Source: Lutibacter citreus (GTDB lineage Bacteria > Bacteroidota > Bacteroidia > Flavobacteriales > Flavobacteriaceae). Taken from it: a stretch of DNA of 64,000 nt. Shown piece by piece: positions 29,434 through 53,394 of the stretch; position 1 is the first letter of the stretch; each line of letters starts with the position of its first letter. Made by a program: the position numbers and the translations under genes. Location of the stretch: the NCBI RefSeq assembly GCF_003260195.1, contig NZ_QEIH01000004.1:372001-436000 (forward strand), read 5' to 3'. The notes under the pieces were generated by a model. The model was not told the DNA's origin. It made no database searches and was given only the letters and a program-made list of their open reading frames with translations.

Positions 29434-30327
29434 TCACAAACAAAATAATACTTTTACAGCCAAATTTAAATTTTCTTTATCTAAATTCAATTTAACTATT
29501 TTATGTATTTTTTCTATTTTCAATTGCCCATCTTTAATAGAAAGAACTTCCTCTATTTTAGGTAAACTTTTAATCTCATTAATCTCATTACTTGACGGAA
29601 TTTTCTCATAATTACCCAGCCTTCCAATATTATTCCCTGAAAGAATATTAGTTTTAAAAATATGTTTAGGTAAATTATCTACACCAATACCCTTTGAAGT
29701 TATCGGTTTTGGAATTTCAAAAAGTGAATCTTCTGTAATTCTCGTGTACCAACTTCCACCCAAGCGAGCAACTAAATCTAATTTTTTAGTATCTAGGTTA
29801 TTGTTTTTATCTAAATATTCATTATTTATATGAATATAAACTACTTTACAAATCACTAAATTCCCTGCTCCTCCTTCATTACCTAAAGGAATAATATTTT
29901 CAACAGTACATTCAAAAGAAACTGGTGATTCCAATACTCGCGGCGGTTTTACTTTAATAGAATTTCCTTCGGCAAAACCTGCTTTTTGAAATTCATTTAC
30001 ACCTTTTTCATATTCTGTACTTGTTAAAGACATTTGCTCAACAATAGGAAAATTCACAATGTTAATTACAACCTCTTTTACTTCTTTAACATTTTGCAAG
30101 GTATGTTTTGTAGTATTATCTCTAACTCTCCGAGCCGGTGAAAAAATTAACGTAGGCGGATTAGAACTAAACACGTTAAAAAAACTAAACGGACTTAAAT
30201 TTACATCTCCTTTTAAATTTATTGTACTTGCAAAAGCAATTGGCCTGGGCGCAACAGCTGTTAGTAAAATATTGTGTAATTCCTTTGTTGAAATTGAATT
30301 AGGATCTATAGAAGTAACTTGTTTCAT
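29434..30327 (-). CDS. Flavin reductase-like FMN-binding split-barrel protein
   Basis: The N-terminal 200 residues match the flavin reductase split-barrel: LLTAVAPRPIAFAST, NLSPFSFFNVFSSNPP and VIN(I/V)VNFPIVEQM motifs for FMN binding. The protein has no signal peptide and is cytoplasmic. It is the last gene of the tyrosine operon, six bases after fumarylacetoacetase. Relatives often sit next to fumarylacetoacetase in flavobacteria, but its step in the pathway is not known; it could supply reduced flavin or act on a quinone or side product (inference). The C-terminal 80 residues are unassigned. Confidence 0.75.
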   Translation of the reverse strand: MKQVTSIDPNSISTKELHNILLTAVAPRPIAFASTINLKGDVNLSPFSFFNVFSSNPPTLIFSPARRVRDNTTKHTLQNVKEVKEVVINIVNFPIVEQMSLTSTEYEKGVNEFQKAGFAEGNSIKVKPPRVLESPVSFECTVENIIPLGNEGGAGNLVICKVVYIHINNEYLDKNNNLDTKKLDLVARLGGSWYTRITEDSLFEIPKPITSKGIGVDNLPKHIFKTNILSGNNIGRLGNYEKIPSSNEINEIKSLPKIEEVLSIKDGQLKIEKIHKIVKLNLDKENLNLAVKVLFCL

Positions 30328-30333
30328 AATTAA

Positions 30334-31569
30334 TTATTTTGAAGGTAATATTTGAGCTTTAACTTCACCAAAACCAACTCTAATATCGTCTTTTTTACAA
30401 TAACCACGTATAATTACAGTATCATAATCTTCTATAAATTTACGTTCTTCACCGTTATTCAATTTTATTGGATTCTTACCTGCCCAAGATAACTCTAACA
30501 TTGAACCATATGAATCTTTACTCTTTCCACTTATGGTTCCTGAAGCCAACAAATCCCCCACATTAACATTGCAACCATTACTTGTATGATGCGCTAATTG
30601 TTGCGACATATTCCAATACATATATTTAAAATTCGAGTTACTCACAACTGTTTCTTCTGAATTATTTGGAGAAATCGACACTTCTAAATTTATGTCGAAA
30701 TTCTTTAAACCATTATATTCTAAATACGGTAAAACTTTTGGTGTTTGCTCTGGACCAGCAATTCTAAAAGGCTCCAAAGCTTCTAGTGTTACCACCCAAG
30801 GAGAAATAGATGAAGCAAAATTCTTTGCCAAAAAAGGCCCTAATGGAACGTACTCCCATTTTTGAATATCTCTAGCAGACCAATCGTTAAATAATACTTT
30901 TCCAAAAATATAATCTTCTGCTTTTTCTGTTGAAATTGAATCTCCAACTTCAGTTTGCTTACCAATTATAAAACCCATTTCCAATTCAAAATCCACTCTC
31001 GCCGAAGGCTCAAAAACCGGCAAAGTTTCATTCAGTTTTAAAACTTGTCCTTTTGGTCTGTGAATATTTTTACCACTAACCATAATAGATGAAGCTCTAC
31101 CGTGATAACCAACAGGAATGTGTTTCCAGTTTGGTAACAAAGCATTTTCTGGATCTCTAAACATCACACCAACATTTGTAGCGTGTTCTATGCTCGAATA
31201 AAAATCAGTGTAATCACCAACTTTAACTGGCAAATGCATTTCAACATCTTTTTGAAGCACAAATGCTTCTTTTGAAGATTTCAACACTGAATTCTCATTA
31301 CATAATTCATCTTGAATAATGGTTCTAACTTTTTTTGTAATCGATTTTCCTAATGAAATAAAATCATTTAAAAAGTCTGATTCAAAAATAGTTTTTGAAA
31401 AGCTTAATTGCTTAAACAAGCCTAAATCATAAACAACTGACAAATCTAAAACAGCATCTCCAATTGCAATTCCAACTTTCTTTTTTGAAGTTGGAGTTGA
31501 AAAAATTCCAAAAGGAATATTATATATCGTAAAATCTGAATTTTCGGATACTTTAAACCACGTTTTCAT
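30334..31569 (-). CDS. fahA: Fumarylacetoacetase
   Basis: It hydrolyses fumarylacetoacetate to fumarate and acetoacetate, the last step of tyrosine degradation. The N-terminal SH3-like domain is followed by the catalytic fold with metal-binding DYTDFYSS, FELEMGFIIG (Glu ligands) and LFNDWSARDIQKWEY. The 411-residue length fits the family. It lies 16 bases after the phenylalanine hydroxylase gene. No maleylacetoacetate isomerase gene is present in the operon; that step may be spontaneous, glutathione-independent or encoded elsewhere. Confidence 0.92.
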   Translation of the reverse strand: MKTWFKVSENSDFTIYNIPFGIFSTPTSKKKVGIAIGDAVLDLSVVYDLGLFKQLSFSKTIFESDFLNDFISLGKSITKKVRTIIQDELCNENSVLKSSKEAFVLQKDVEMHLPVKVGDYTDFYSSIEHATNVGVMFRDPENALLPNWKHIPVGYHGRASSIMVSGKNIHRPKGQVLKLNETLPVFEPSARVDFELEMGFIIGKQTEVGDSISTEKAEDYIFGKVLFNDWSARDIQKWEYVPLGPFLAKNFASSISPWVVTLEALEPFRIAGPEQTPKVLPYLEYNGLKNFDINLEVSISPNNSEETVVSNSNFKYMYWNMSQQLAHHTSNGCNVNVGDLLASGTISGKSKDSYGSMLELSWAGKNPIKLNNGEERKFIEDYDTVIIRGYCKKDDIRVGFGEVKAQILPSK

Positions 31570-31585
31570 TGTATTTTTTTTATTT

Positions 31586-33331
31586 TTAAGATAGTAGATT
31601 TAAACCATCTTCAATTAATTTCTTGTATTTATTATCTTGTTTTAATTTTTCTAATTGTTTTAAAACTGCTTCTAAAAAACGACCTTCCGTTTTATAAGTT
31701 AGCTCATAGATTTCTAAAAACAGCAACCATTCTTTATTATAATTATTTAAAACTTCATTAAAAATTGTTTCAATTATAACCAAGCTTATTTGTTCAGATT
31801 CTCTCATTTTTCTTATTTCATTGTAATAAGAATGAAGCTTCAACTTATTTTTAGAATAGTTAATTTTATGTGTTTTTTCTGAAGGAACTTCGTAAATATT
31901 CTCAAAAGATTCACTTGATGCTGGTCCAGAAAATGCAGAAACAACATCTTTTCCAACTGCCATATCATAAATTCCCCATTCGGGCTTGAATAGAGTTTCA
32001 TCTTGATAAGTAACCGTACAATTCTTAAAAGAAATCAACATTATTTTTCCTTGTAAATCTCTTATTCCAGTAATTATTTGTCCATTAACTTTAACTCCTC
32101 CTTCAAAAAGCAATTCAGTTTTTAAACCTTCATAAATTCCATAAGCCTCTAAATCTTTTGGAGACATATCTTCAATTGCTAAGTTTATTCCTTCCAACTT
32201 TCCAATAGGACTTCCAAATCCCTCTTTATGATATTCAACTCCGTGACCAATCAACTCTTTATCTCTTGAAGCTAAAGCCGTTTCACCTGTTGTTTGAATA
32301 TAAATTGGTTTATTTTCATCACTAACAACATTCATAAAAACTCCTGAAATTTGTAGTCCAGTACTTAACTCTATAGTTCCTATATTTTTTGAAACTATTA
32401 ATTTTTGAATTCCTTTTAAACCTCCTTTTCGTAGCGCTATTGTATTTGCAAACTTTTCCAAAACATAACTTAAATGAGCAAAATCTGGAGTCACAAATAA
32501 CTGAGGCTGTGGCTTTGTTATATCAAAATTAATTTGTGCCGCTTTTATAGAATATGGTATCTTTTCAATTTCTTTTTGTAAACAAGTTTTACTTTCTCCT
32601 ATAGAAGATAATAAACCAGCTCCGTATATTTTTGGGTTTTCTAGCTCTCCAATTAAGCCATATTCCACAGTCCACCAATGCAAATTTCTAATTTGGGCCA
32701 TTTCAGATAATTCACCCATATTGTTTTGAAGAACATTTACAATCTCTGTGGCTTTATCAATTTCCTTTTCACAAGTATTTGGATCTTCTTTTATAATGGA
32801 CAAATGCCTAACGGCTTCATACATTTCATAATCCTTTTCAGAAGAAATTGCCTTACTTCCAATTTCACCAAAACGCCTTAAATATTCAGCATATTCTGGA
32901 TTTGCAATTATTGGTGCGTGACCAGCAGCTTCGTGAATAATATCTGGTGCAGGTGTATATTCTATATGCTCTAATGTTCTAATATCTGATGCAATTACCA
33001 ATACGTTATATGCTTGAAATTCCATAAAGGCATTAGGAGGTATAAATCCGTCAACAGCAACTGCCGCCCAACCAATTTCTTTTAAAATTCTATTCATTCC
33101 TTCCATTTTAGGAATGCTATCTACTAAAATTCCCGTTTTTTCTAGGCCTTCTAAATAATAACTATGCGCCGTGTTTTTTAAATAATCAATATTTACTCGC
33201 ATAACATATCGCCACACAGCTTGGTTTTGAGCTGTATATTCCTCATATGGTTGCTTCATTATAAACTTTAGTAAATGTTTTGGCAACCTTTGAGTTACAG
33301 TATTTAATTCTATTTTATGTTTAGAATTCAC
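31586..33331 (-). CDS. Aromatic amino acid hydroxylase (phenylalanine 4-monooxygenase), long form
   Basis: It converts phenylalanine to tyrosine with a pterin cofactor and non-heme iron. The iron ligands are visible: H133 and H138 in HEAAGH and E223 in WTVEYGLIG. The catalytic domain covers about residues 15-290. A further 290 residues follow (from about LRKGGLKGIQ) that are absent from the short Proteobacterial enzyme and match no domain I recognise. The start is a GTG at 33331, because the conserved opening LPKHLLKF lies before the first ATG. It lies ten bases after the dioxygenase gene in the operon. Confidence 0.88.
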   Translation of the reverse strand: MNSKHKIELNTVTQRLPKHLLKFIMKQPYEEYTAQNQAVWRYVMRVNIDYLKNTAHSYYLEGLEKTGILVDSIPKMEGMNRILKEIGWAAVAVDGFIPPNAFMEFQAYNVLVIASDIRTLEHIEYTPAPDIIHEAAGHAPIIANPEYAEYLRRFGEIGSKAISSEKDYEMYEAVRHLSIIKEDPNTCEKEIDKATEIVNVLQNNMGELSEMAQIRNLHWWTVEYGLIGELENPKIYGAGLLSSIGESKTCLQKEIEKIPYSIKAAQINFDITKPQPQLFVTPDFAHLSYVLEKFANTIALRKGGLKGIQKLIVSKNIGTIELSTGLQISGVFMNVVSDENKPIYIQTTGETALASRDKELIGHGVEYHKEGFGSPIGKLEGINLAIEDMSPKDLEAYGIYEGLKTELLFEGGVKVNGQIITGIRDLQGKIMLISFKNCTVTYQDETLFKPEWGIYDMAVGKDVVSAFSGPASSESFENIYEVPSEKTHKINYSKNKLKLHSYYNEIRKMRESEQISLVIIETIFNEVLNNYNKEWLLFLEIYELTYKTEGRFLEAVLKQLEKLKQDNKYKKLIEDGLNLLS

Positions 33332-33341
33332 AAATTACGTT

Positions 33342-34508
33342 TTAAAGTGTTCCTCTGTTTTCTTGCTCTCTTTCTATTGCTTCAAACAATGCTTTAAAGT
33401 TTCCTTTTCCAAAGGATTGTGCGCCTTTTCTTTGAATAATTTCAAAAAACATTGTTGGTCTATCTACAACAGGTTTTGTAAACAATTGTAGCAAATAACC
33501 CTCATCATCTCGGTCTATTAAGATACCGTGTTTTTTTAAAACCTCAATATCCTCATCAATTTTTCCTACACGCTCTAACAAATCGTTATAATAATTCTCC
33601 GGAACATATAAAAACTCAACTCCTCTATCTCTCATTGCTGAAACTGAAGCTACAATATCATTTGTTGCAACAGCAATATGTTGAACTCCTGGACCATTAT
33701 AAAAATCTATATATTCTTCAATCTGAGATTTCTTTTCTCCTTTAGCTGGTTCATTAATTGGGAATTTAATTCTTCCATTTCCGTTAGACATTACTTTACT
33801 CATTAAAGCCGTAAAATCAGTTGAAATATCTTTATCATCAAATGAAATTATTTGGGCAAATCCCATCACTTTTGCATAAAACTCACACCACTTATTCATT
33901 TCACCCCAATCAACATTACCAACTATATGATCAATAAATTTTAATCCTACTGGTTCTGGGTTGTAATGAGATTCCCATTTTTTATAATTTGGTAAAAACA
34001 CACCTTTATAGTTTTTCCTCTCCACAAAAACGTGCACTGTATCACCATAAGTATGTATTCCTGAACGAACTACATATCCATTCTCTCCATCATCTTCACG
34101 TGTAGGTTCCATATAAGATTTCGCACCTCTTTTAACCGTTTCTTCCCAAGCTTTTTCAGCGTCTTCAACCCAAAGAGCCACTACTTTTACTCCATCTCCG
34201 TGCTTGTTAATATGCTCATTAATTTCACCACCTTTTTCTAGTGAAGTTGTTAGAACCAATCGAATTTTATCTTGCTTTAAAACATACGAAACTCGATCTT
34301 TCATTCCAGTTTCTAAACCTGCATAAGCTTCAGATTGAAAACCAAAAGCCGTTTTATAATAATTAGCCGACTGCTTTGCGTTTCCTACATACAACTCCAC
34401 ATAATCCGTACCTAATAAAGGTAGAAAATCTTCTGCATCATCGAATAATTTTTTTAAGGAATATTCGGTGTTTTGTAAATCTTTTAAATTTTTAATTTCT
34501 GCTGACAT
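33342..34508 (-). CDS. hppD: 4-hydroxyphenylpyruvate dioxygenase
   Basis: It converts 4-hydroxyphenylpyruvate to homogentisate. Two vicinal-oxygen-chelate domains are present (about residues 35-165 and 185-370). The iron-binding triad is H194 (FIDHIVGN), H277 (GVQHIAVAT) and E356 (FFEIIQRKG). The 388-residue length is normal. The gaps to the neighbours are 11 and 10 bases, so it is in the middle of the tyrosine operon. A cytoplasmic enzyme without signal peptide. Confidence 0.95.
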   Translation of the reverse strand: MSAEIKNLKDLQNTEYSLKKLFDDAEDFLPLLGTDYVELYVGNAKQSANYYKTAFGFQSEAYAGLETGMKDRVSYVLKQDKIRLVLTTSLEKGGEINEHINKHGDGVKVVALWVEDAEKAWEETVKRGAKSYMEPTREDDGENGYVVRSGIHTYGDTVHVFVERKNYKGVFLPNYKKWESHYNPEPVGLKFIDHIVGNVDWGEMNKWCEFYAKVMGFAQIISFDDKDISTDFTALMSKVMSNGNGRIKFPINEPAKGEKKSQIEEYIDFYNGPGVQHIAVATNDIVASVSAMRDRGVEFLYVPENYYNDLLERVGKIDEDIEVLKKHGILIDRDDEGYLLQLFTKPVVDRPTMFFEIIQRKGAQSFGKGNFKALFEAIEREQENRGTL

Positions 34509-34519
34509 TATTAATTATT

Positions 34520-35680
34520 TTAGTTAGTTTTCCAAGATTTATAGTAATCTTCAACCTGTAGTTTTAATGCTTCTTCAGTAATAGACAATGATCTAAAAGG
34601 ATCAATCATAACTGCTAATTCTTGTGTTTTCTTTTTCCCAACACTTCTTTCTATTGCTCCAGGATGTGGTCCGTGAGGAATTCCTCCAGGATGCAATGTT
34701 AACTGACCAATTTCTATATTATTTCTACTCATAAAATCGCCATCTACGTAATACAACAATTCATCCGAATCTATGTTTGAATGATGATAAGGAGCAGGAA
34801 TTGATTTTGGGTGATAATCATACATCCTCGGCACAAAACTGCACACTACAAAACCTTTAGATTCCCAAGTTTGATGAACTGGTGGCGGTTGATGAATTCT
34901 GCCATTTATTGGTTCAAAATCGTGAATTGAAAATACAAACGGATAATGAAACCCATCCCAACCAACAACATCAAAAGGATGATTTCCATAGCTATACTCC
35001 CACATATTTCCATGCTTTTTAACCTTCACCTTAAAATCTCCTTTTTCATCAATTGTTTCAAGGTTTTCAGGCAACCTAAAATCGCGCTCACAAAACGGTG
35101 AATGCTCTAATAATTGTCCAAAATTGTTACGGTATCTTTTAGGTGTGAAAATTGGTTCAAAAGATTCTACATATAAAATTCTATTATCTTCAGAATCAAA
35201 TTCTATTTGGTATATAATTCCCTTTGGAATAATTACATAATCTCCATATTTAAAAGAAATTGAACCATAACAAGTTTTTAATTTCCCTGAACCTTTATGA
35301 ATAAATAACATTTCATCGGCATCGGCGTTTTTGTAGAAATAGGCTTTTGAAAAACCCATGGGAGCAGCTAAGCCTATATGTAAATCATTATTTACAAACA
35401 ATGTTTTTCTACTCTCTAGAAAGTCTTCTTCTGGTTTAATTGAAAAGCCTTTGAAACTTAAAGCTTTCATATTTTTTTTAACCCCAATTTTTGGTGCAAC
35501 TGAACCTAAATCTGTTACTTCATTTACAACTGTTGGCGGATAAATATGGTATAAAAGCGATGATATTCCTGAAAAACCTGCAGTACCAAAAAGCTCTTCT
35601 TGGTACAAGCCTCCTTCAGTTTTTACAAAGGTAGTATGACGCTTCTTAGGAATATTTCCTAAAGTGTGATAACGTGCCAT
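34520..35680 (-). CDS. hmgA: Homogentisate 1,2-dioxygenase
   Basis: It opens the ring of homogentisate to give maleylacetoacetate. This is the short bacterial form of 386 residues with cupin-type barrels. PYHHSNIDSDELLYY and GGIPHGPHPG hold the candidate iron ligands (His, Glu, His). It lies 37 bases after the aminotransferase gene and 11 bases before the 4-hydroxyphenylpyruvate dioxygenase gene. Together these genes give the complete phenylalanine-to-fumarate route apart from the isomerase step. Confidence 0.93.
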   Translation of the reverse strand: MARYHTLGNIPKKRHTTFVKTEGGLYQEELFGTAGFSGISSLLYHIYPPTVVNEVTDLGSVAPKIGVKKNMKALSFKGFSIKPEEDFLESRKTLFVNNDLHIGLAAPMGFSKAYFYKNADADEMLFIHKGSGKLKTCYGSISFKYGDYVIIPKGIIYQIEFDSEDNRILYVESFEPIFTPKRYRNNFGQLLEHSPFCERDFRLPENLETIDEKGDFKVKVKKHGNMWEYSYGNHPFDVVGWDGFHYPFVFSIHDFEPINGRIHQPPPVHQTWESKGFVVCSFVPRMYDYHPKSIPAPYHHSNIDSDELLYYVDGDFMSRNNIEIGQLTLHPGGIPHGPHPGAIERSVGKKKTQELAVMIDPFRSLSITEEALKLQVEDYYKSWKTN

Positions 35681-35717
35681 TATGTGATTTTTTTAGTTTA
35701 GTATTTTCTATAAGCAA

Positions 35718-36842
35718 TTAATTAAGTGAAATTAATTTCAACTTATTTAATGCTTTTATTAAAGCTATATTAGCCTCTCTAGTTCCAATTGTAATTCTAA
35801 CTTTTCCATTTGCACCAAAATTATCTACTGGTCGCACAGCAATTCCCTCTCCAGCCAAAAACTGCACAAATTCATTTGACGGAATTGGTGGATTTATTAA
35901 ATAAAAGTTAGCTTGTGTAGGGTAAAACTTAATTCCTAATTTGTTATATTCTACTTTTAAAAAGCTTTTTTCGGAATGAATAGTTTCTATTGTTTCCTTA
36001 ATAAAGTTAGCATCCTTTAATGATGCAATTGCACCTTCAAGAGATAATTTTGTAATTAAAAACGGCTTACAAATTTGTCGTAAATAGGCTGCTACTTCTT
36101 CATTCATATAAGCATAACCAACTCTTAATGATGCCAATCCATACGTTTTAGAAAAACTATTAATTGCTATTAAATTAGGGTAATTAGAGATGTAAGGCAA
36201 TGCTGTTGTATAATCATCTGTATTTGCAAAATGCCAATAAACTTCATCAAATACAACAACAACGTCCTGTGGCAATTCATTTAACAAATACTCTAATTCT
36301 TCTTTTGAAATATATGAACCTGTTGGATTGTTAGGACTTGTTAAAAAAATTATTCTTGTTTTTTCTGATACCGACTTTAAAATTCCTTCAACATTTAAGC
36401 TATAATCGTTTTCAAACAAAGGAACATCAACAACTGTTGCTCCAGACCAGCAAGAAAACATTTTGTAGGGCACAAAACAAGGTGTAGAAATAATAACTTC
36501 ATCTTCTTCTCTTACAAAAGCTCTTATTATTAAATCTATTATTTCGGAACCGCTTGCTGCGCAAATAAATTGTTCTTTTAATAATTGCTGTTTATAATAT
36601 ACCTCTAATGCTTCACGTAAACGAATATCTGTTGTATCTGGGTACAAATGTAAATCACTTAAAGAGTTTTTAATTGCTTTTAAAGCAAAAGGCGACGTAC
36701 CAATTGGATTTTCATTTGAAGAAAGTTTATACACTTTTTGTCCTTCTTTTTTTTGTGAAATCCCGCGCCCTCCTTTGTAACCATTTTTAACTGTTAAGTA
36801 TGGTTTAAATAGAGTCTTTATTGATTTAGATGTAGTTTTCAT
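35718..36842 (-). CDS. PLP aminotransferase, HisC-like, probable aromatic aminotransferase
   Basis: This fold-type I aminotransferase has the PLP lysine K232 in NSFSKTYGLASLRVGY, SPNNPTG for substrate carboxylate binding and VVFDEVYW before it. Its closest look is histidinol-phosphate aminotransferase, but it is the first gene of a tyrosine degradation operon, so transamination of tyrosine to 4-hydroxyphenylpyruvate is the likely role. The 374-residue length is normal and there is no signal peptide. A TAnnTTTG promoter box lies 40 bases upstream. Confidence 0.85.
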   Translation of the reverse strand: MKTTSKSIKTLFKPYLTVKNGYKGGRGISQKKEGQKVYKLSSNENPIGTSPFALKAIKNSLSDLHLYPDTTDIRLREALEVYYKQQLLKEQFICAASGSEIIDLIIRAFVREEDEVIISTPCFVPYKMFSCWSGATVVDVPLFENDYSLNVEGILKSVSEKTRIIFLTSPNNPTGSYISKEELEYLLNELPQDVVVVFDEVYWHFANTDDYTTALPYISNYPNLIAINSFSKTYGLASLRVGYAYMNEEVAAYLRQICKPFLITKLSLEGAIASLKDANFIKETIETIHSEKSFLKVEYNKLGIKFYPTQANFYLINPPIPSNEFVQFLAGEGIAVRPVDNFGANGKVRITIGTREANIALIKALNKLKLISLN

Positions 36843-44931: not shown

Positions 44932-46461
44932 TTATTCAAATTCTACTTTAAATACTGTAGCGATATCATTCATTAAATTAGCATTTGGAGTGGTTAGTTC
45001 CAGTAATCCATCTTTAAAATTTCTTTTAATTTTTGTATTATTCCCTACTATGGATACATTCTTAATTTTCTGATTTGCATTCTCACTAAAAACATGTTGA
45101 ATTTTAATTACACTATTTTCTTTAGGCATCCCTAAACAAAATACATATAATGCTTTTTTATCTTTTGAAGTTGTAAAACGGATATCACTTTCATTATATT
45201 TTACAGTAGCAGATTGACCTCCAAAATGACCTTCTTTAATTTCAGCTTCTCCATATCCATAAACATCATGTGTTCTTGTACCATAAATTGCTTCTGCATT
45301 GGCTTTAGTCCATTTTCCAATTTCAGCCAAAATAGCTCTTTGTTCATCTGGAATTACACCATCTGCTCTTGGTGAAACATTTAGTAACACAATACCTTTT
45401 TTACTCCAAACATCAATCATATTTTTAATTAATAACGGAGCGCTTTTATATTTTAAGCCATTAGTAAAACACCAACTTCCGTCACTAATTGTTATATCTG
45501 TTAACCAGTAATCTGGAGACATTTCTTTCATCCCTCCTTGTTCAATATCTAAAACTCCAACATTTCTTGGAAGATCTTTTTGCTTATAAGCAACTAAGTT
45601 TTCTTTATTATTTTTCACCCCAGAATTAAATTGATGAGCAACCATTTTTTGAAGATAACTTTCAGGAATTTGATCTAACCATGAATCAAACCAAATAATA
45701 TCAGGCTGATAATTATCTACAACTTCTTCAACCTCATCCAACCAATATTGATTAAATTCATCTTCTTCCAAATTGCCGTAAAGGTATTTTAATTTAGGAT
45801 CTGTAGATGATGTAGCGTATTTAGGATTGTATGGGTAATGACTTGCTGTACCTCCCCAATTTGCCGTATCTTTAGTATAACGCTGTAAAGTTCGCGCATG
45901 ATGAAAAGTTGCAATTGTTTTTAAATCTCGCTTTTTTAATTCTTTATATAAATCTCCTAGAATATCTTTCTTAGGCCCCATATCCTTCACATTCCAAGGG
46001 TTTACCTTACTAGCCCACATTGCAAACCCATCATGATGCTGGGCTACTGGCCCTGCAAATTTAGCTCCTGCACTTTTAAACAATTCTGCCCATTCTTTTG
46101 CATCAAATTTTTCAGCTTTAAACATTGGAATAAAATCATGATAATTAAATACTGAAGGATCTCCAAAATGCTCTTTATGGTATTGAAAAGTTCCTTTTCC
46201 CCATTTATCTCTATTTTCTACATACATCCAACGTGGATACCATTCACTACTAAAAGCTGGCACACTATAAATACCCCAATGAAAATAGATTCCTAATTTG
46301 GCATCAGCAAACCAATCTGGTTCTTTATTATTTTTGGCTAAAGACTCCCAATTAGATTCAAATTTATCTACAACTATTTCGTCTACAACTTGTTTTTTCT
46401 CTTCTTTACAAGAAAACAACATTAAAACTCCTAATACAATTACAATCCCTTTGATTCTCAT
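44932..46461 (-). CDS. GH29 alpha-L-fucosidase/alpha-L-galactosidase-like lipoprotein
   Basis: Lipobox LMLFSC (Cys18) predicts anchoring. GH29 landmarks are GIYFHWGIYS, QHHDGFAMWAS, FHHARTLQRY and the nucleophile motif IIWFDSWLDQ with D259; a C-terminal beta-sandwich follows. All canonical sugar-contact residues that can be recognised are kept, so of the seven GH29 genes this looks like one of the most likely true fucosidase or galactosidase activities. It is 51 bases downstream of the sulfatase-lactonase fusion, and the two are probably one transcript. Confidence 0.87.
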   Translation of the reverse strand: MRIKGIVIVLGVLMLFSCKEEKKQVVDEIVVDKFESNWESLAKNNKEPDWFADAKLGIYFHWGIYSVPAFSSEWYPRWMYVENRDKWGKGTFQYHKEHFGDPSVFNYHDFIPMFKAEKFDAKEWAELFKSAGAKFAGPVAQHHDGFAMWASKVNPWNVKDMGPKKDILGDLYKELKKRDLKTIATFHHARTLQRYTKDTANWGGTASHYPYNPKYATSSTDPKLKYLYGNLEEDEFNQYWLDEVEEVVDNYQPDIIWFDSWLDQIPESYLQKMVAHQFNSGVKNNKENLVAYKQKDLPRNVGVLDIEQGGMKEMSPDYWLTDITISDGSWCFTNGLKYKSAPLLIKNMIDVWSKKGIVLLNVSPRADGVIPDEQRAILAEIGKWTKANAEAIYGTRTHDVYGYGEAEIKEGHFGGQSATVKYNESDIRFTTSKDKKALYVFCLGMPKENSVIKIQHVFSENANQKIKNVSIVGNNTKIKRNFKDGLLELTTPNANLMNDIATVFKVEFE

Positions 46462-46512: not shown

Positions 46513-48798
46513 TTATTTTGAATATGGATTTAAATTAACTCTTAAAATTAAATCATCACTTGTTATAAATAAAAATTGACCATCATCACTAAAGGCACAA
46601 TTACCTGTTTTTTTATTTGTTTTTATAGTCCCTAAATGGATTCCTTCAGATGATAAAATTAAAACCCCGTCAGGTCCAGCTACAAATAAATTTCCATCTT
46701 TATCAACCTTCATACCATCAGGACATTGTTTGCTTACGCTTGCTCTATGAAGTGCCGTTGCATCAAAAAATATTCTTTTATTATTTACTATTCCATCATT
46801 TACAATATCAAAAGCCCATACCTTTGGAAAATCAGAGTCAGAATCTGCAACATATAAAACTTTTTCATCCTTTGAAATAGCAATTCCGTTTGGTAATTTC
46901 ACTTCTTTTGTTAATAATTTCACATTTCCTGTTTTATCTACAAAATACACACCGTTAAAACCAATATCGCTTTTTTTCCCTTTCCCTAAACCAAAAGTAG
47001 GATCAGTAAAATAAAGATTTCCTTTTGAATCAAAAACTAAATCATTTGGTGAATTAAACTTTTTACCCTTATAATCTTTAACTATTGGCTGAAAAGTGGC
47101 ATTGCTGGAGTCAACCCTAGTTACAAGTCTACTTATTACCCTATCTGCAACCTGACAAAGAATTAAATTCCCTTGATTGTCTAACACTAATCCGTTTGAA
47201 CCTTTTACTTTCTTTTCTAACGTATTTGGAATCATTCCTGAAGGCGATAAATAAACGCTTAAACCTGTAATATCATTCCATTGATATGCTTTATTTTCAG
47301 GAACATCAGAAAAAATTAATTTTTGACCTTTAGGTTGCCAAACAGGACCTTCAGACCAAGTAAATCCTTCAGCAATCAATTCTATTCTTGCATCTTTAGA
47401 AATAATATTATCCAATGCTGGATTTAGTCTTTTAATTTCCCCAAATGAAGGATATTTCTTTAGTGAATCTATAATTTTTTCGAACTTTAATTTCAAAAAT
47501 TCTTCTTCCTTGGCATAATTTTCTAATGGATTTAATTCCAATTCATCTTCTTTGGTATTATAAAACCTACCATCTCCGTATAATTTATATTCTTTATTTA
47601 GAGCAAATTCAGAACGATAAAAATCCTTTTTACCTGCACCTGGCTTGGGATTATAACTCATATAAACCCAATCTCTTCTTTTTGATTCTTCGTTTTTTAA
47701 AACAGAAACAAAACTTTCACCATCTGTATGAAAATCTTTTGGAACTGATTTTCCTGCCAACTCTAAAATTGTAGGTAAAAAATCTATCGCGTCAATATAT
47801 TCATCTGTTTCAATTCCTTCTTTCACAAAGTTTGGAAGATTAGCAATAAATGGAACCTTAATTCCTGCTTTAATAGTTAAACCTTTACCACCTTGCACAA
47901 TTTTATCACCCATTTTGGAATAAATTTGTTGATGAGTTCCATTATCCGAATAGAATAAAATTATTGTATTTTCTCTTAATCCATTCTTGTCTAAATTTTT
48001 AACAATATCTCCAACAATCTTATCGGTATATTCAACCATATCCTTAAAATAAACTGGTTTGTCTAAAAACCGTTTTTCAGGATCTTTCCATTCTTTTGAA
48101 TTTGGAGTTGGAGAAAAAGGATTGTGTGTTAAAACCATTGGGTAATAAACAAAAAATGGCTTTTCTCTTTTTTTATTTACAAAATCATTTAAGTAATTCA
48201 CAAAAATATCTGGTCCGTATTTTCCTTTTGTATCGGTTAAAAATTTACCATTTTGATATATTGTAGGATCTGCAAAGCGAGAACCTTTATCTTCTGTATG
48301 CCCCGTGTGCCATAAACTATACTCTTCAAAACCTGCATTTTCAACCTTCATTCCCGTATCTCTTCTATTCTCCGAACCTGGATAATCCACGGGATCATAA
48401 CTTTGTAATTGCCACTTTCCAACCATACAAGTTGTATAGCCTGCATCTTGCATTAAATGTCCAAAAGTTTTCTGATCTGGATGTAAAATACCAAAAGAAG
48501 TCCAATTTCTATAATTATACTTCCCCGTCATCAATTTCACTCTGGTGTTAGTGCATAGCGGTTGTGCATAGGCTTGATTAAAAAGAACACCAGTACTTGC
48601 TAGTTTATCTATATTTGGAGTTTTATAAGAAGTCCCTCCATAGCAGCCAATTGATTCATACCCTAAATCATCAACCATTATTAGAATTATATTTGGAGGA
48701 TTTTTATTTCCTTTACATGATATTCCTGTAAAAAAAACTAATAACATTATAAAAACTATAGCAATATTTAAATTGGGAAAACTCTTAGATTCAATCAT
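46513..48798 (-). CDS. Fusion lipoprotein: S1 sulfatase plus SMP-30/gluconolactonase domain
   Basis: This 761-residue protein joins two enzymes. After lipobox TGISC (Cys28) comes a sulfatase (about 35-455): LIMVDDLGYESIGCYG, PLCTNTRVKLMTGKYN with candidate formylglycine Cys82, GKWQLQ and IILFYSDNGT. The activation motif has asparagine instead of proline or alanine. From residue 469 a six-bladed SMP-30 propeller follows: SEGPVW (metal ligand E483), NSPNDLVF (N585), LPNGIAIS and CPDGMKVD (D694), all standard metal or active-site positions of sugar lactonases. The fused enzyme could remove sulfate and open an aldonolactone of the same sugar outside the cytoplasm (inference). A dehydratase and an aldonate-type transporter are encoded next upstream. 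Confidence 0.85.
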   Translation of the reverse strand: MIESKSFPNLNIAIVFIMLLVFFTGISCKGNKNPPNIILIMVDDLGYESIGCYGGTSYKTPNIDKLASTGVLFNQAYAQPLCTNTRVKLMTGKYNYRNWTSFGILHPDQKTFGHLMQDAGYTTCMVGKWQLQSYDPVDYPGSENRRDTGMKVENAGFEEYSLWHTGHTEDKGSRFADPTIYQNGKFLTDTKGKYGPDIFVNYLNDFVNKKREKPFFVYYPMVLTHNPFSPTPNSKEWKDPEKRFLDKPVYFKDMVEYTDKIVGDIVKNLDKNGLRENTIILFYSDNGTHQQIYSKMGDKIVQGGKGLTIKAGIKVPFIANLPNFVKEGIETDEYIDAIDFLPTILELAGKSVPKDFHTDGESFVSVLKNEESKRRDWVYMSYNPKPGAGKKDFYRSEFALNKEYKLYGDGRFYNTKEDELELNPLENYAKEEEFLKLKFEKIIDSLKKYPSFGEIKRLNPALDNIISKDARIELIAEGFTWSEGPVWQPKGQKLIFSDVPENKAYQWNDITGLSVYLSPSGMIPNTLEKKVKGSNGLVLDNQGNLILCQVADRVISRLVTRVDSSNATFQPIVKDYKGKKFNSPNDLVFDSKGNLYFTDPTFGLGKGKKSDIGFNGVYFVDKTGNVKLLTKEVKLPNGIAISKDEKVLYVADSDSDFPKVWAFDIVNDGIVNNKRIFFDATALHRASVSKQCPDGMKVDKDGNLFVAGPDGVLILSSEGIHLGTIKTNKKTGNCAFSDDGQFLFITSDDLILRVNLNPYSK

Positions 48799-48881
48799 TT
48801 TTAAGTTATTAAAAAATTAGTAGTTATTATTTAAAATCAGAATTTACCATTCCGTAAAACTTCAATCCTTATTCCTCTATA

Positions 48882-49002
48882 TTAGATTAGACTAGCTATT
48901 TTCACTTCTTCAGCTACCTTCCCCCTTCAATTTTGACCCCTAATCCAGGTTATCAAACAATTTAATATATCCACCTTTAACATTAAAAACTTCTGGGTTG
49001 AA
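48882..49002 (-). pseudogene. Remnant of a second enolase-superfamily (mandelate racemase type) gene, C-terminus
   Basis: The minus strand reads FNPEVFNVKGGYIKLFDN, then after a one-base shift PGLGVKIE, then after another shift VAEEVKIASLI followed by a TAA at 48882. This is the typical C-terminal end of dehydratases of this superfamily (PEVFxxxxGYIxLPxxPGLGVxID). It differs from the end of the intact gene at 49107, so it is a relic of a separate paralogue. No upstream part is recognisable in the 100 bases before the intact gene's stop. The remainder of the 308-base gap shows nothing else. Confidence 0.6.
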
Positions 49003-49106
49003 CCATAATTAAAAAAATATATCCCAATTTTATAATGAATCCTTATACTATTTCTTGAATAAAGCTATTTAACACATTATTAAATTATTCTAACATTTTT
49101 AGTGCA

Positions 49107-50267
49107 TTACCAATTATTTAAAGAACCATCATCTCTTGATAACCTTGGTATTTCAACAGGCTTGAATTCTTGATTTTTTATATATTCTTCATCTAAATCA
49201 ACCCCTAAACCTGGCGTATCTAAAACAGGATATCTAGCACCTTCAAGTTTTGGCTGTATAGGATAATATTTTAAATCATTTGTAGAGGTATGTGCTCCTG
49301 AATTAACTTCTTCTAACCAACTAAAATTAGGACATGCAGCTGCCACATGAATAGTAGCAGCGGTACAAATTGGTCCTAATGGATTATGAGGCATTAAATC
49401 AATATAATGCGCCTCAGCTAAAGAAGCCACTTTCATTGATTCGGTTATTCCACCAACGTTACAAACATCTATTCTTGCATATTGGGTAATATTTCTTTCT
49501 AAAAATGGTAAAAACTGCCATTTACTTGAAAATTCTTCTCCAATGGCAAATGGAATATCTATCATTTTCCTTAATGCTTCATAAGCTTCTGGATTTTCAT
49601 CTCTAATTGGCTCTTCAATAAAATCGATTGTTCCACGAGGCATTCTTTTCATAAAAGAATATGTTTCAGGTATTGTTAATCGTGTATGATAATCAATTCC
49701 TATTGTAACACTTGAACCAACTTTTTTACGCAATTTAGTTAACCAATCTGCTATTATACTTATTGACTCACGAGGTTCAAATCTATGATCTTTCTTAAGC
49801 TCTTTTTCAAATTCAGCTGGTGCTAAACGCAACATGTCCCATCCATTTTTTACAAAATAAAGAGAGCGCTCTATTAATTCCTCATACGTTGCAAATCTTA
49901 CGGATGCAAAACAAGGAATATAATCACGTTGTTTCCCTCCTAATAATTCATAAACTGGCACATTAAGAGCTTTTCCTTTTATATCGTATAATGCAATATC
50001 AATAGCAGATATAGCAGCTGTAAGCACTCTTCCTCCTTCAAAATACTGACCTCTATATAAATCTTGCCAAATTGCCCCAATTTGCATTGGGTTTTTGCCT
50101 ATTAACAACGGTCTATAATGTTCAATTGCACCAACTACAGCTAATTCTCTCCCAGATAATCCTGAAGCTCCCCAACCATAAATCCCAGCATCGGTTTCAA
50201 TTTTCACAACTAACTGACTTCCAGAACCAACATTTATTGGATAGGTAATTATATTTGTTATTTTCAT
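49107..50267 (-). CDS. D-galactonate dehydratase-like enolase-superfamily enzyme
   Basis: This cytoplasmic 386-residue protein belongs to the mandelate racemase subgroup. Visible residues are D192 and H194 (IDYHTRLT), E218 (IEEP), E244 (IGEEF), D267 (RIDVCNVGG) and H294 (MPHNPLGP). The spacing 192/194/218/244/267/294 is exactly nine more than the D183/H185/E209/E235/D258/H285 set I recall for E. coli galactonate dehydratase, so 2-keto-3-deoxy-galactonate formation is the leading idea. A cycloisomerase acting on 3,6-anhydrogalactonate is an alternative in this context. It is the last gene of the 49-61.6 kb operon, 21 bases after the transporter. Confidence 0.82.
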   Translation of the reverse strand: MKITNIITYPINVGSGSQLVVKIETDAGIYGWGASGLSGRELAVVGAIEHYRPLLIGKNPMQIGAIWQDLYRGQYFEGGRVLTAAISAIDIALYDIKGKALNVPVYELLGGKQRDYIPCFASVRFATYEELIERSLYFVKNGWDMLRLAPAEFEKELKKDHRFEPRESISIIADWLTKLRKKVGSSVTIGIDYHTRLTIPETYSFMKRMPRGTIDFIEEPIRDENPEAYEALRKMIDIPFAIGEEFSSKWQFLPFLERNITQYARIDVCNVGGITESMKVASLAEAHYIDLMPHNPLGPICTAATIHVAAACPNFSWLEEVNSGAHTSTNDLKYYPIQPKLEGARYPVLDTPGLGVDLDEEYIKNQEFKPVEIPRLSRDDGSLNNW

Positions 50268-50288: not shown

Positions 50289-51575
50289 TTAATCTTTAGG
50301 AACTATTCTTTCAACTTTTCCAACAATAAAGGTATAACTAAAGAATCCTAAAAAAGCAATTGCACCTATAAAAAACAATGCCGGTCTAAAATCTCCATCT
50401 TGAACTAAATAACCAATTACGGTTGGTATTACTATTCCTGACAAACCTCCAATAAAATTAAAAGTTCCTCCTACCAAACCTAAATGTTTTTTAGGAGCTA
50501 ATAACGAGACAAAAACCCAAGCTATACTAGCCAAACCTGTTCCGAAAAAAGCCAAAGCTAAAAATAGAATTACGTAAAAAGTATCATCTGTATAGTTTGC
50601 TCCAATTATACAAGTAGACAATAGCATTCCTATAATAATTGGTGTTTTTCTTGAAATTTCTGCTGAATACCCTTTCTTGATTAAAAAATCTGATGTAAAC
50701 CCAGAAAGTAATACTCCAAAAAACGCAGCTAAAAACGGAATTGAGGCTAAAAATCCAGATTGTAAAAAATCCAATCCTCTATATTCAACTAAATAAGTTG
50801 GAAACCATGTTAAGAAAAATATTGTTGTTGCTCCTAAGCAAAACTGACCTATATAAATCCCCCACAGTTTTCTATATTGAAATGCATATTTTAAATCGCC
50901 CCAATTAAATTTAATTTTGGTTTTCTCCTTATTTTCAGAACCTATAAGTCCACCTCCTTTTTCAATATGCTCTAGCTCCGCTTCATTTATTTTTTTATGA
51001 TCTCTTGGGTCTCTATAAAAAATATACCAAATTCCTGCCCAAACTAAACCAATAATCCCAGACACTATAAAAAGACCTCTCCACCCCATTGAATCTTGAA
51101 TTGCAACAAGAACTGGAGTTAAAAATGCAAGTCCTAAAAACTGTCCTGAAGTATAAACGGCAATTGCAGATGCTCTTTCGTTTTCTGGAAACCAACGACT
51201 CACAACTAAATTATTAATTGGATATGAAGGTGCTTCAAAAATTCCAATACTAGCTCTTAAGCCAAGTAAAACAATAAATGAATTTACAATACCCTGCAAT
51301 AGGGTTGCAATAGACCAAAAGGTTAAAATAAATGTATATAAAACACGTGATTTAATTTTATCAGCAATAATTCCTCCTGGAATCTGAAGAAGTGCATAGG
51401 TCCAACCAAACGCTGAAAAGACATATCCCATTTGAATGGTATCTAATCCTAAATCTTCTCTTAAGGCTGGAGCAGCTACCGAAATATTACTTCTATCTAG
51501 ATAATTTATAACAACAGTAATAAAAATCATTGTAAGGATTTCGAACCTTTTTTTTGTCATTGGTTTTTTACTCAT
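50289..51575 (-). CDS. MFS transporter, anion:cation symporter (hexuronate/aldonate) family
   Basis: This protein of 428 residues has about 12 membrane spans. The N-terminal signature NYLDRSNISVAAPALREDL and the loop IPGGIIADKIKSR are typical of the ACS family that moves sugar acids such as glucarate, galactonate and hexuronates with protons. It would bring an aldonate into the cytoplasm for the dehydratase encoded immediately downstream. The inner loop and C-terminal half look complete. It is 143 bases from the beta-propeller gene upstream, so it may still be part of the same operon. Confidence 0.86.
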   Translation of the reverse strand: MSKKPMTKKRFEILTMIFITVVINYLDRSNISVAAPALREDLGLDTIQMGYVFSAFGWTYALLQIPGGIIADKIKSRVLYTFILTFWSIATLLQGIVNSFIVLLGLRASIGIFEAPSYPINNLVVSRWFPENERASAIAVYTSGQFLGLAFLTPVLVAIQDSMGWRGLFIVSGIIGLVWAGIWYIFYRDPRDHKKINEAELEHIEKGGGLIGSENKEKTKIKFNWGDLKYAFQYRKLWGIYIGQFCLGATTIFFLTWFPTYLVEYRGLDFLQSGFLASIPFLAAFFGVLLSGFTSDFLIKKGYSAEISRKTPIIIGMLLSTCIIGANYTDDTFYVILFLALAFFGTGLASIAWVFVSLLAPKKHLGLVGGTFNFIGGLSGIVIPTVIGYLVQDGDFRPALFFIGAIAFLGFFSYTFIVGKVERIVPKD

Positions 51576-51717: not shown

Positions 51718-53373
51718 TTACCTAATAATAACATTTCCTTCAAGAGTAGAAGGTTTTTGTTCTTTCTGATTAATTATTACTCTAATAGTTGCTAGTTCTC
51801 CAATCTCCGCAAACTTTTTAGAACTCATTTCTATAATTGTTTTTTCAAAAGGTTTTAAAGCTGGAGCATTTCCTGTAGCCAATTCAATCCATTTTCCATC
51901 TTTTTTGAAATAAATTTTCACTGGTGTTTCTATTGATGTAACCTGACCGAAATTTTCAATTTCTAAACTAACCTTTAAATGATTACCATTTAATTCCAGC
52001 ACAGGATATTTACTTGACAATGCTTGCTGGTTATAATCCAACCAAGGTAAACGTGCGTAACCAAACAACATTTTTCCTTTTCTTGTTTTCCCTAATAATT
52101 TCCCTGCAAAATTTTCTTCAGTAATTCCATTTCCTAATCCTTCAAAAGTTAAAACTAAATCATTGTCAACTTTTTCCTTTTCAATTACTTTACTTCCTCC
52201 ACCAAAATTCACAACTTCAGAAGCTCCAAATCTCAAAGATTTAATATTTAAATCTTTTTGAGGATTAAATCCTTCTTCTGCCTGAATTTTTAAACGAATA
52301 GTTTTAGTATTAGCATCAATTTTAGTTGTATTCAAAATTGTAATTAATTTACCAACCGTTAAAGGAATTCCAATATTTTTTGAGCTATGATTATCACTTC
52401 CTTTGTCTTGTCTTTTAATTGTGTCAGCAACGGCAAAATTAGCTTGAATTGCACGTCCGTGTATATCTTGAAATACTTTCATTCGTTCAAACTTATACCA
52501 ATCTTCCAACGTTTTATCTTCATACTTTGCTATTCCTGGTAAATAAGCTTCACCGGCATCTAATTTCCAATGAATACCATCTTTAGAGCGCTGATAATAG
52601 GCTATTCTCCCCATCCAATCATTAACAATCATATGGTATTGAATATTAGTTCTCCAAATAACAGGATCTTCATAACGACCTTCATACGGCGGGTAATTAC
52701 TTTTATCTGTTACCATATAAAAAGGAGGCAATCCGGTTTCACTAAATAAAACCTCACCTCCACGACTTACCATTAAATAAGAACCATCTTCACGTTGAGC
52801 AAACGTATTATTTGTAAAATGATCTAAGATTGGTTTTTCACGTTGATCGTATTCAAACTTTAAAAACCCCCATGGTCCATTTAAACTTTCTGACAAATAA
52901 TAACCTCCATTTACAGAAATTACAAATCGCCCATCTTTAATCTTATAAATCTCTGGATTATGACCTTTACCAATGGTTTCAACATATTTAAAAGGACCAA
53001 ATAAATTATCTGAAACTACATGTGTAACTTCTGATCGTGGCCACTCCATATGCCCTTTTTCTGAATCTTCTCTCCAACGACAAACAAATTGATGGTATTT
53101 ACCATCTTCACCTTGTATTTTATTTCCTCCCCAATAAGACCAATCTTTATCTTCAATTCCGTTATCCATATAACGAGGAATTACTTCTTTTGCTCCCCAA
53201 GTATTAGAAGATTTTTTACCGATTTTTGGAATGGGTAAAAACCGATCAATAAACCTACTTCCTTCAACTAAACCATCCCATTCTTTAGGTCTTGATCTTT
53301 CTACATCTTGAGCTACTAAATTGTTAACAGTAATTATTAATAAAACTAAAATTGATAAAAATTTTGTATTCAT
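51718..53373 (-). CDS. Secreted five-bladed beta-propeller glycoside hydrolase-like protein (GH43/GH117-like)
   Basis: The signal peptide ends NLVAQ. Residues about 75-325 look like a five-bladed propeller: WSYWGGNKIQGEDGKYH, SEVTHVVSDNLFGPF, GHNPEIYKIKDGRFVIS and YEDPVIW (234-240), which resembles the central acidic motif of GH43 and related families. A C-terminal beta-sandwich (350-551) follows. Related folds cleave anhydrogalactose or alpha-galactose links in agar and carrageenan, but I cannot assign a family. The ATG at 53373 is preferred as it opens the signal peptide. It follows a sulfatase in the operon by four to 21 bases. Confidence 0.65.
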   Translation of the reverse strand: MNTKFLSILVLLIITVNNLVAQDVERSRPKEWDGLVEGSRFIDRFLPIPKIGKKSSNTWGAKEVIPRYMDNGIEDKDWSYWGGNKIQGEDGKYHQFVCRWREDSEKGHMEWPRSEVTHVVSDNLFGPFKYVETIGKGHNPEIYKIKDGRFVISVNGGYYLSESLNGPWGFLKFEYDQREKPILDHFTNNTFAQREDGSYLMVSRGGEVLFSETGLPPFYMVTDKSNYPPYEGRYEDPVIWRTNIQYHMIVNDWMGRIAYYQRSKDGIHWKLDAGEAYLPGIAKYEDKTLEDWYKFERMKVFQDIHGRAIQANFAVADTIKRQDKGSDNHSSKNIGIPLTVGKLITILNTTKIDANTKTIRLKIQAEEGFNPQKDLNIKSLRFGASEVVNFGGGSKVIEKEKVDNDLVLTFEGLGNGITEENFAGKLLGKTRKGKMLFGYARLPWLDYNQQALSSKYPVLELNGNHLKVSLEIENFGQVTSIETPVKIYFKKDGKWIELATGNAPALKPFEKTIIEMSSKKFAEIGELATIRVIINQKEQKPSTLEGNVIIR

Positions 53374-53394
53374 TTTAAATTCTTTAATCATAAC

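Follow-up and report, generated by a model that had tools for sequence, protein, structure and literature searches.

A gene in the window (the whole stretch of 64,000 nucleotides of Lutibacter citreus DNA that was analysed) encodes a sulfatase joined to a sugar lactonase in a single protein, and proteins of this sulfatase-SGL architecture form a stable family throughout Bacteroidota and also occur in one Verrucomicrobiota MAG. From the fusion itself, its conserved active-site residues, the co-located genes and the repeated joining of such sulfatases to lactonases, all of which can be read directly from the sequences, we infer with moderate confidence a bifunctional exported enzyme that would convert a sulfated aldonolactone into a free aldonate for import, its two activities, their shared substrate, the order of the steps and the sugar all being predicted.

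The fusion protein and its active sites

The gene and the parts of its product are as follows.

46513..48798, minus strand: sulfatase-SGL fusion gene, 761 aa (open frame, Pfam and structure model)
48715..48798, minus strand: N-terminal export signal with Cys28 as likely lipid-attachment site (read from the sequence)
47500..48696, minus strand: S1-type sulfatase half (PF00884 at residues 35-349, then SGSH_C to residue 433)
48541..48555, minus strand: maturation motif C82-T-N-T-R86, with Asn replacing Pro (homologue alignment)
46558..47358, minus strand: SMP-30/SGL lactonase propeller (PF08450 at residues 481-747; ligands E483, N585, N637 and D694)

The sequence-only reading had placed the gene correctly and left out its strand. 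The 761 codons form a single frame without internal stop, and the domains exceeded their Pfam cut-offs (PF00884 Sulfatase 164.1 bits against a curated cut-off of 25, SGSH_C 47.8 bits against 29.3, and PF08450 SGL 144.8 bits against a curated cut-off of 26.3), which agrees with the earlier statement that a full S1 sulfatase and a full SMP-30 propeller stand in one protein. The structure model of the 761-aa fusion had a pLDDT of 89.9 and a pTM of 0.83, and its propeller has the lactonase fold, within 1.5 A rmsd of the exported gluconolactonase 3dr2.

Active-site residues were compared in an alignment of 47 fused homologues, which we chose from the 56 fused proteins among the best 120 matches of the lactonase half. 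The window protein has all of D43, D44, C82, R86, K128, H225, D285, N286 and K305, which we take to be the catalytic and metal residues of the sulfatase; D285 is conserved in 46/47 of the aligned fusions and the other eight are invariant (47/47). In the lactonase half E483 (46/47), N585 (47/47), N637 (47/47) and D694 (46/47), presumably the E, N, N, D metal ligands of SMP-30/SGL proteins, all align with the ligand positions of 3dr2. Three of these, E483, N585 and D694, had been named from the sequence and are indeed present; N637 was missing from that list. Given that the active-site residues are conserved across the 47 aligned fusions, both halves look maintained for catalysis.

The canonical formylglycine signature of S1 sulfatases is C-x-P-x-R. 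The window protein reads C-T-N-T-R instead, and among the fused homologues position 84 of the motif is Asn in 15/47 and Pro in 32/47. This Asn may impede formation of formylglycine, and the protein is assigned to PF00884 by its profile and residues, its maturation being predicted. Matches to the FGE family were found at 8 places in the host genome, and no anaerobic maturase over the cut-off was found there. A triple-domain relative (P0178) has Ser at the Pro/Asn position.

The earlier term lipoprotein fits the window protein by eye, with C28 standing behind a hydrophobic stretch, and does not extend to the whole family, in which a loose lipobox pattern precedes the sulfatase domain in 15/47 fused homologues and the signal of several others ends, by eye, in an AQ-type site. 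A scan around the fusion gene gave promoter-like matches no better than those of shuffles and no terminators.

Recurrent fusion of one sulfatase subfamily to lactonases

The protein search with the lactonase half took proteins of 0.55-1.75 times the length of the fusion; 2459 passed and the best 120 were examined, of which 56, the window protein included, also contained PF00884 (hand count). Scanning genome contigs yielded 80 loci, and 26 of these (L038-L063, among them one truncated by a contig end, L062) carried the SGL fusion. The hosts were Lutibacter, Kriegella, Arenibacter, Flavicella, Maribacter, Zobellia, Seonamhaeicola, Algibacter, Jejuia, Flexithrix and Saprospiraceae, together with other Bacteroidota MAGs and one Opitutales MAG (Verrucomicrobiota). 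The suggested search for S1 plus SMP-30 architectures thus found such proteins well beyond the window, and the idea of a unique oddity was ruled out by the existence of this family. The fusion had been called rare, which describes its full-length presence in 6/149 sampled genomes of the host's family (window genome included) and does not describe a family that is stable across Bacteroidota. Read-through or an assembly error joining two genes, which the sequence-only reading had given as the way in which its claim could fail, is excluded because the architecture recurs, at 26 loci and, among the best 120 protein matches, in 56, and as an explanation an annotation or assembly artefact has a practically negligible probability.

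Several features were observed beside the fusion genes. At L048:9854-13197 a separate SGL lactonase gene lies 20 bp ahead of the fusion gene, forming tandem SGL copies, and in L040, L042 and L049 (two Arenibacter and one Zobellia) the gene of a PhoD-like protein just upstream shares 4 bp with the fusion gene. The host genome (5.1 Mb) is very sulfatase-rich: 209 pieces of it match the fusion query and, among the matches listed, nearly all hit the sulfatase half.

The sulfatase half was also found joined to a lactonase of another kind. In 9 of the 54 other relatives from the contig scan a C-terminal PF10282 seven-bladed lactonase replaces the SGL domain (BLAST for all 9, with Pfam confirmation for the 2 that were submitted; 2 of the 9 are shortened by contig ends), and PF08450 and PF10282 are distinct Pfam families. 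When the PF10282 half was used as the query, 64 proteins were obtained and PF00884 was present in 58/64. In a tree of 84 sulfatase domains, made by a quick method without bootstrap and with long outgroup branches, the SGL fusions grouped in a single clade of 27 rows (SH-aLRT 98), and a separate clade of 9 rows (SH-aLRT 99), nested among lactonase-free sulfatases, contained the PF10282 fusions; 44 rows had no lactonase, some of them being truncated by contig ends. Two proteins, P0178 and the fragmentary P0180, contain sulfatase, PF10282 and SGL domains in this order. Their SGL domains are 30-31% identical to that of the window and lie on a long branch, and were therefore probably acquired separately. 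Fusion of one sulfatase subfamily to lactonases has occurred repeatedly, an argument whose weight is a matter of judgement.

Aldonate genes around the fusion

On the minus strand of the window the gene order is MFS transporter, ENOL1 (a name coined here), fusion, GH29 and then sulfatase genes. The features next to the fusion are listed below.

50289..51575, minus strand: MFS transporter of the D-galactonate transporter subfamily (TIGR00893, 398.7 bits, cut-off 395)
49107..50267, minus strand: ENOL1, acid-sugar dehydratase-like member of the enolase superfamily (PF13378/PF02746)
48847..49064, minus strand: remnant of a D-galactonate dehydratase C-terminus, its frames broken (translated match, 39.3 bits)
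44932..46461, minus strand: GH29 glycosidase directly downstream of the fusion, after a 51-bp gap (PF01120)

Several parts expected of a De Ley-Doudoroff route were found. The transporter belongs, narrowly, to the D-galactonate subfamily (398.7 against 395 bits), and a PF01081 KDPG/KDPGal-type aldolase lies about 7 kb beyond the right edge of the window (C30:443104-443637), on the same strand and amid sulfatase and glycosidase genes. No host-genome match exceeded the NF010624 cut-off for an intact D-galactonate dehydratase. The best NCBIfam match of ENOL1 was galactonate dehydratase at 278 bits, below the cut-off of 311. A role of ENOL1 as anhydro-galactonate cycloisomerase was considered and disfavoured because ENOL1 scores 198.6 bits with 3rr1, a putative D-galactonate dehydratase, and 146.7 bits with DauB 5olc. 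No sugar oxidase was recognised among the scanned proteins of the window's PUL and no PF07995 dehydrogenase in the host genome, whose sole Gluconate_2-dh3 match is on another contig, beside genes for a 568-aa oxidoreductase-like protein and a 3-keto-disaccharide hydrolase. The nearest PDB entries to the GH29 protein were fucosidase 7snk and the exo-alpha-L-galactosidases 7ljj/7lnp.

The relic fills part of the gene-free 308-bp gap between ENOL1 and the fusion and matches the last 60-75 or so residues of D-galactonate dehydratase; its 39.3 bits exceed both the best of 200 mononucleotide shuffles (26.6) and the 14.2-18.1 scored by eight other gaps within the window. The nearest relative, a Lutibacter (78% identical), has the dehydratase (625 bits against the cut-off of 311) and the order MFS, ENOL1, GntR, D-galactonate dehydratase, fusion, GH29, two sulfatases, GH29 and sulfatase. 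Given the relic beside the fusion, the window locus probably once carried this order and then lost the dehydratase, after which either ENOL1 took over or the pathway is moving to another acid.

Two other features of the window were seen on the minus strand: a 557-aa protein of the same gene run (51718-53391) had no Pfam or PDB match at the thresholds used, and a block resembling tyrosine/homogentisate catabolism (29434-36842; flavin reductase-like, FAA hydrolase, biopterin-dependent hydroxylase, HPPD-like, HgmA and aminotransferase genes) stands between parts of the sulfatase/GH29 cluster.

Neighbours were counted at an identity of at least 40% within about 10 kb of the fusion. At least one of D-galactonate dehydratase, ENOL1 (its MFS-linked paralogue) and KDPG aldolase was present in 12/26 fused loci, compared with 0/54 loci of the other relatives and 0/13 loci of stand-alone sulfatases, the 13 being the sulfatase-only matches listed from the host's own family (Fisher's exact test, p = 2.3e-8 against both control sets pooled and p = 0.0025 against the 13 alone). 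The individual counts in fused loci were 10/26 for D-galactonate dehydratase, 6/26 for ENOL1, 7/26 for KDPG aldolase and 7/26 for the MFS transporter, and include self-matches by construction in that the reference dehydratase came from L038 and L040 and the reference aldolase from L039, L040 and L041. Collapsing by genus or group, with labels assigned by hand and a group counted if any member was positive, gave 10/17 versus 0/13 (Fisher, p = 0.0006). These statistics are guides only because the loci are related: six of the fused loci are from Zobellia, and genomes recur between sets (L041 and L164; L052 and L169). Mean locus length was 21.3 kb for the 26 fused loci and 16.2 kb for the 54 controls, and below 40% identity the 54 controls held dehydratase-like matches of 30% (L064) and 29% (L078) and an ENOL1 match of 24% (L115). 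At 40% identity the three enzymes were absent from 14/26 fused loci, including the six of Zobellia, and from all loci with a PF10282 fusion (0/9).

Five of these 14 fused loci carry other oxidative sugar genes. In L055 the gene 32 bp downstream of the fusion encodes a glucose/sorbosone dehydrogenase of PF07995 that also has a cytochrome c domain, and in L042 the second gene downstream encodes a related PF07995 protein (40% identical, 31.9 bits against a cut-off of 25); both genes lie within 1.6 kb downstream of the fusion. In L057 genes for a Zn-dehydrogenase and an SDR directly precede the fusion, in L058 an ILVD_EDD dehydratase gene follows it after 10 bp, and L062 has a divergent Amidohydro_2 protein near the fusion. 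PF07995 enzymes are PQQ-dependent and exported, and L055 and L042 therefore possibly pair the fusion with a candidate lactone-forming enzyme in the right compartment; at the level of whole genomes PF07995 was present in 10/11 host genomes and is too common to discriminate. In the remaining 9 loci (six Zobellia, two Algibacter and Flexithrix), many of whose neighbours have no assignment, no oxidative sugar gene was recognised. L056, one of the 12 loci with aldonate enzymes, additionally has TRAP-transporter subunits and dehydrogenases.

The association was also viewed from ENOL1. Orthologues with an E value of 1e-120 or better amounted to 31 copies in 24/397 genomes of the family, and in their neighbourhoods, all 31 of which were read, an MFS transporter was present in 27/31 and an SGL lactonase in 9/31. 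Four of these lactonases are fused (the window, L164, L168 and L169) and five are separate (L131, L166, L175, L178 and L181). L175 packs SGL, D-galactonate dehydratase, aldolase, kinase, ENOL1 and MFS genes into one compact run (BLAST to reference proteins), and in L181 an L-fuconolactonase-like gene (252.7 bits, below the cut-off of 400) and a FucP-like transporter (by eye) accompany ENOL1, MFS and SGL. In the SGL tree, which left out P0013, P0024, P0082 and P0104 (long or two-domain SGL) and the duplicate loci L164 and L169, the sulfatase-free SGL of L131, part of an ENOL1-aldolase operon, branches within the fused clade, and this lineage therefore seems to have lost the sulfatase and retained the lactonase beside ENOL1 and the aldolase.

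Proposed route, alternatives and known systems

In the mechanism that we favour, the sulfatase half would strip the sulfate ester from a sugar unit oxidised at C1, either before or after the oxidation, and the SGL half would open the resulting aldono-lactone outside the cytoplasm. The neighbouring MFS transporter, of the D-galactonate type, would import the free aldonate, and ENOL1 would dehydrate it, a task that in relatives a true D-galactonate dehydratase would share; the KDPG-type aldolase past the window would then cleave the product. Overall this would be a route like that of De Ley and Doudoroff with extracytoplasmic first steps. The sugar may be D-galactose, given the D-galactonate dehydratase of relatives, L-galactose, given the proximity of GH29 to 7ljj/7lnp, or L-fucose, given the several GH29 genes and the L181 locus. 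The hexose oxidase known in Chondrus crispus converts sugars into lactones by oxidation (excerpt of PMC4513209), and such an enzyme is a possible outside source of lactone for the window genome. The sequence-only reading had likewise proposed that a sulfated sugar lactone is handled outside the cytoplasm, which is supported by the separate fusions to two lactonase families, the aldonate genes at 12/26 fused loci and PF07995 at two, its shared substrate remaining a prediction; its firm step to algal galactose lacks support, the GH29 protein being closest to a fucosidase and exo-alpha-L-galactosidases and the genome having no D-galactonate dehydratase over the cut-off.

The case for this mechanism is weakened because 14/26 fused loci lack the three enzymes and 9 of these have no recognised oxidative gene, because none of the nine PF10282-fused loci has the three enzymes, because the host genome lacks PF07995 as well as an over-cut-off D-galactonate dehydratase, and because only 9/31 ENOL1 copies have SGL nearby; moreover the Asn of the maturation motif may hinder formylglycine formation, and the propeller might do no more than bind. 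A more specific version, which we hold only tentatively and think somewhat doubtful, is that a PQQ-type dehydrogenase oxidises the still-sulfated sugar, yielding the sulfated aldonolactone that the fusion turns into free aldonate, and that the sulfatase subfamily is specific for sulfated aldonates or their lactones. Such a specificity would account for its having been joined to lactonases perhaps three times, to SGL in Bacteroidota, to PF10282 in Planctomycetota/Verrucomicrobiota, and to PF10282 and SGL in one protein.

The two halves might instead never share a molecule, the sulfatase trimming glycan oligosaccharides and the tethered lactonase independently serving a parallel supply of aldonate from lactones that, for example, algal oxidases or other bacteria produce. 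Glycosidases and sulfatases of a large PUL make up many of the neighbours, the subfamily elsewhere mostly lacks a lactonase (the 44 tree rows, some truncated by contig ends), and the Chondrus enzyme would provide sugar lactones; convenience alone would nevertheless hardly explain why separate clades carry two lactonase families and why a triple fusion exists, and we regard independent activities as rather unlikely. Beta-propellers are common accessory domains. The protein could thus be a sulfatase whose propeller binds carbohydrate or surfaces without lactonase chemistry, and other multimodular sulfatases are known, one being the rhamnosidase FA22250 with its S1_25 module (PDB title of 6hr5). 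The conservation of the four ligands in 46-47 of the 47 fusions, the close fit of the model to an exported gluconolactonase and the occurrence of the sulfatase-free lactonase half in the aldonate operon of L131 argue against such a module and make it quite improbable. If the favoured mechanism is true, the opening of the lactone, and probably the oxidation too, shifts outside the cytoplasm and the cells import acids instead of sugars, which would explain the aldonate transporters and dehydratases within these loci.

A word search of open-licence literature found no description of a sulfatase-lactonase fusion, and in the excerpts of one matching article the genes appear as separate ones. The closest single-domain counterpart of the lactonase half is XC5397 (PDB 3dr2, Xanthomonas), likewise an exported SMP-30/SGL gluconolactonase, which has about 300 residues, is about 30% identical and lacks a sulfatase. 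The sulfatase half shares its fold and sequence family with the marine galactan enzymes S1_16 9fo1, S1_19 ZgCgsA 9hh2 and Ps i-CgsB 6bia/6b0j, labelled carrageenan sulfatases by their depositors, which are 24-28% identical and lack a lactonase. In FA22250 a sulfatase is likewise fused to a glycan-degrading enzyme, the partner of its S1_25 sulfatase being a rhamnosidase and not a lactonase according to the partial description.

In the oxidative breakdown of 3,6-anhydro-D-galactose by DauA-D of Zobellia galactanivorans, a part of its carrageenan pathway which proceeds via 2-keto-3-deoxy-D-galactonate (excerpt of PMC5698469), an algal sugar is oxidised and the genes lie in a sulfated-galactan PUL, as in the proposed route; unlike that route, a soluble NAD(P)-linked dehydrogenase oxidises the sugar after its release, and the main text of the article does not contain the words lactonase or SMP-30. 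In the carrageenan PUL of Pseudoalteromonas carrageenovora the lactonase is a separate gene, and the excerpted text of PMC6262041 does not describe a sulfatase-lactonase fusion. A galactonate dehydratase and a sugar lactone lactonase were noted in that PUL as a possible De Ley-Doudoroff route, with GntR in a figure legend, a combination that resembles the fused loci. The presence of a lactonase with a galactonate dehydratase in a sulfated-galactan PUL had thus already been noted, and oxidative use of anhydro-galactose shown in Zobellia, according to these excerpts.
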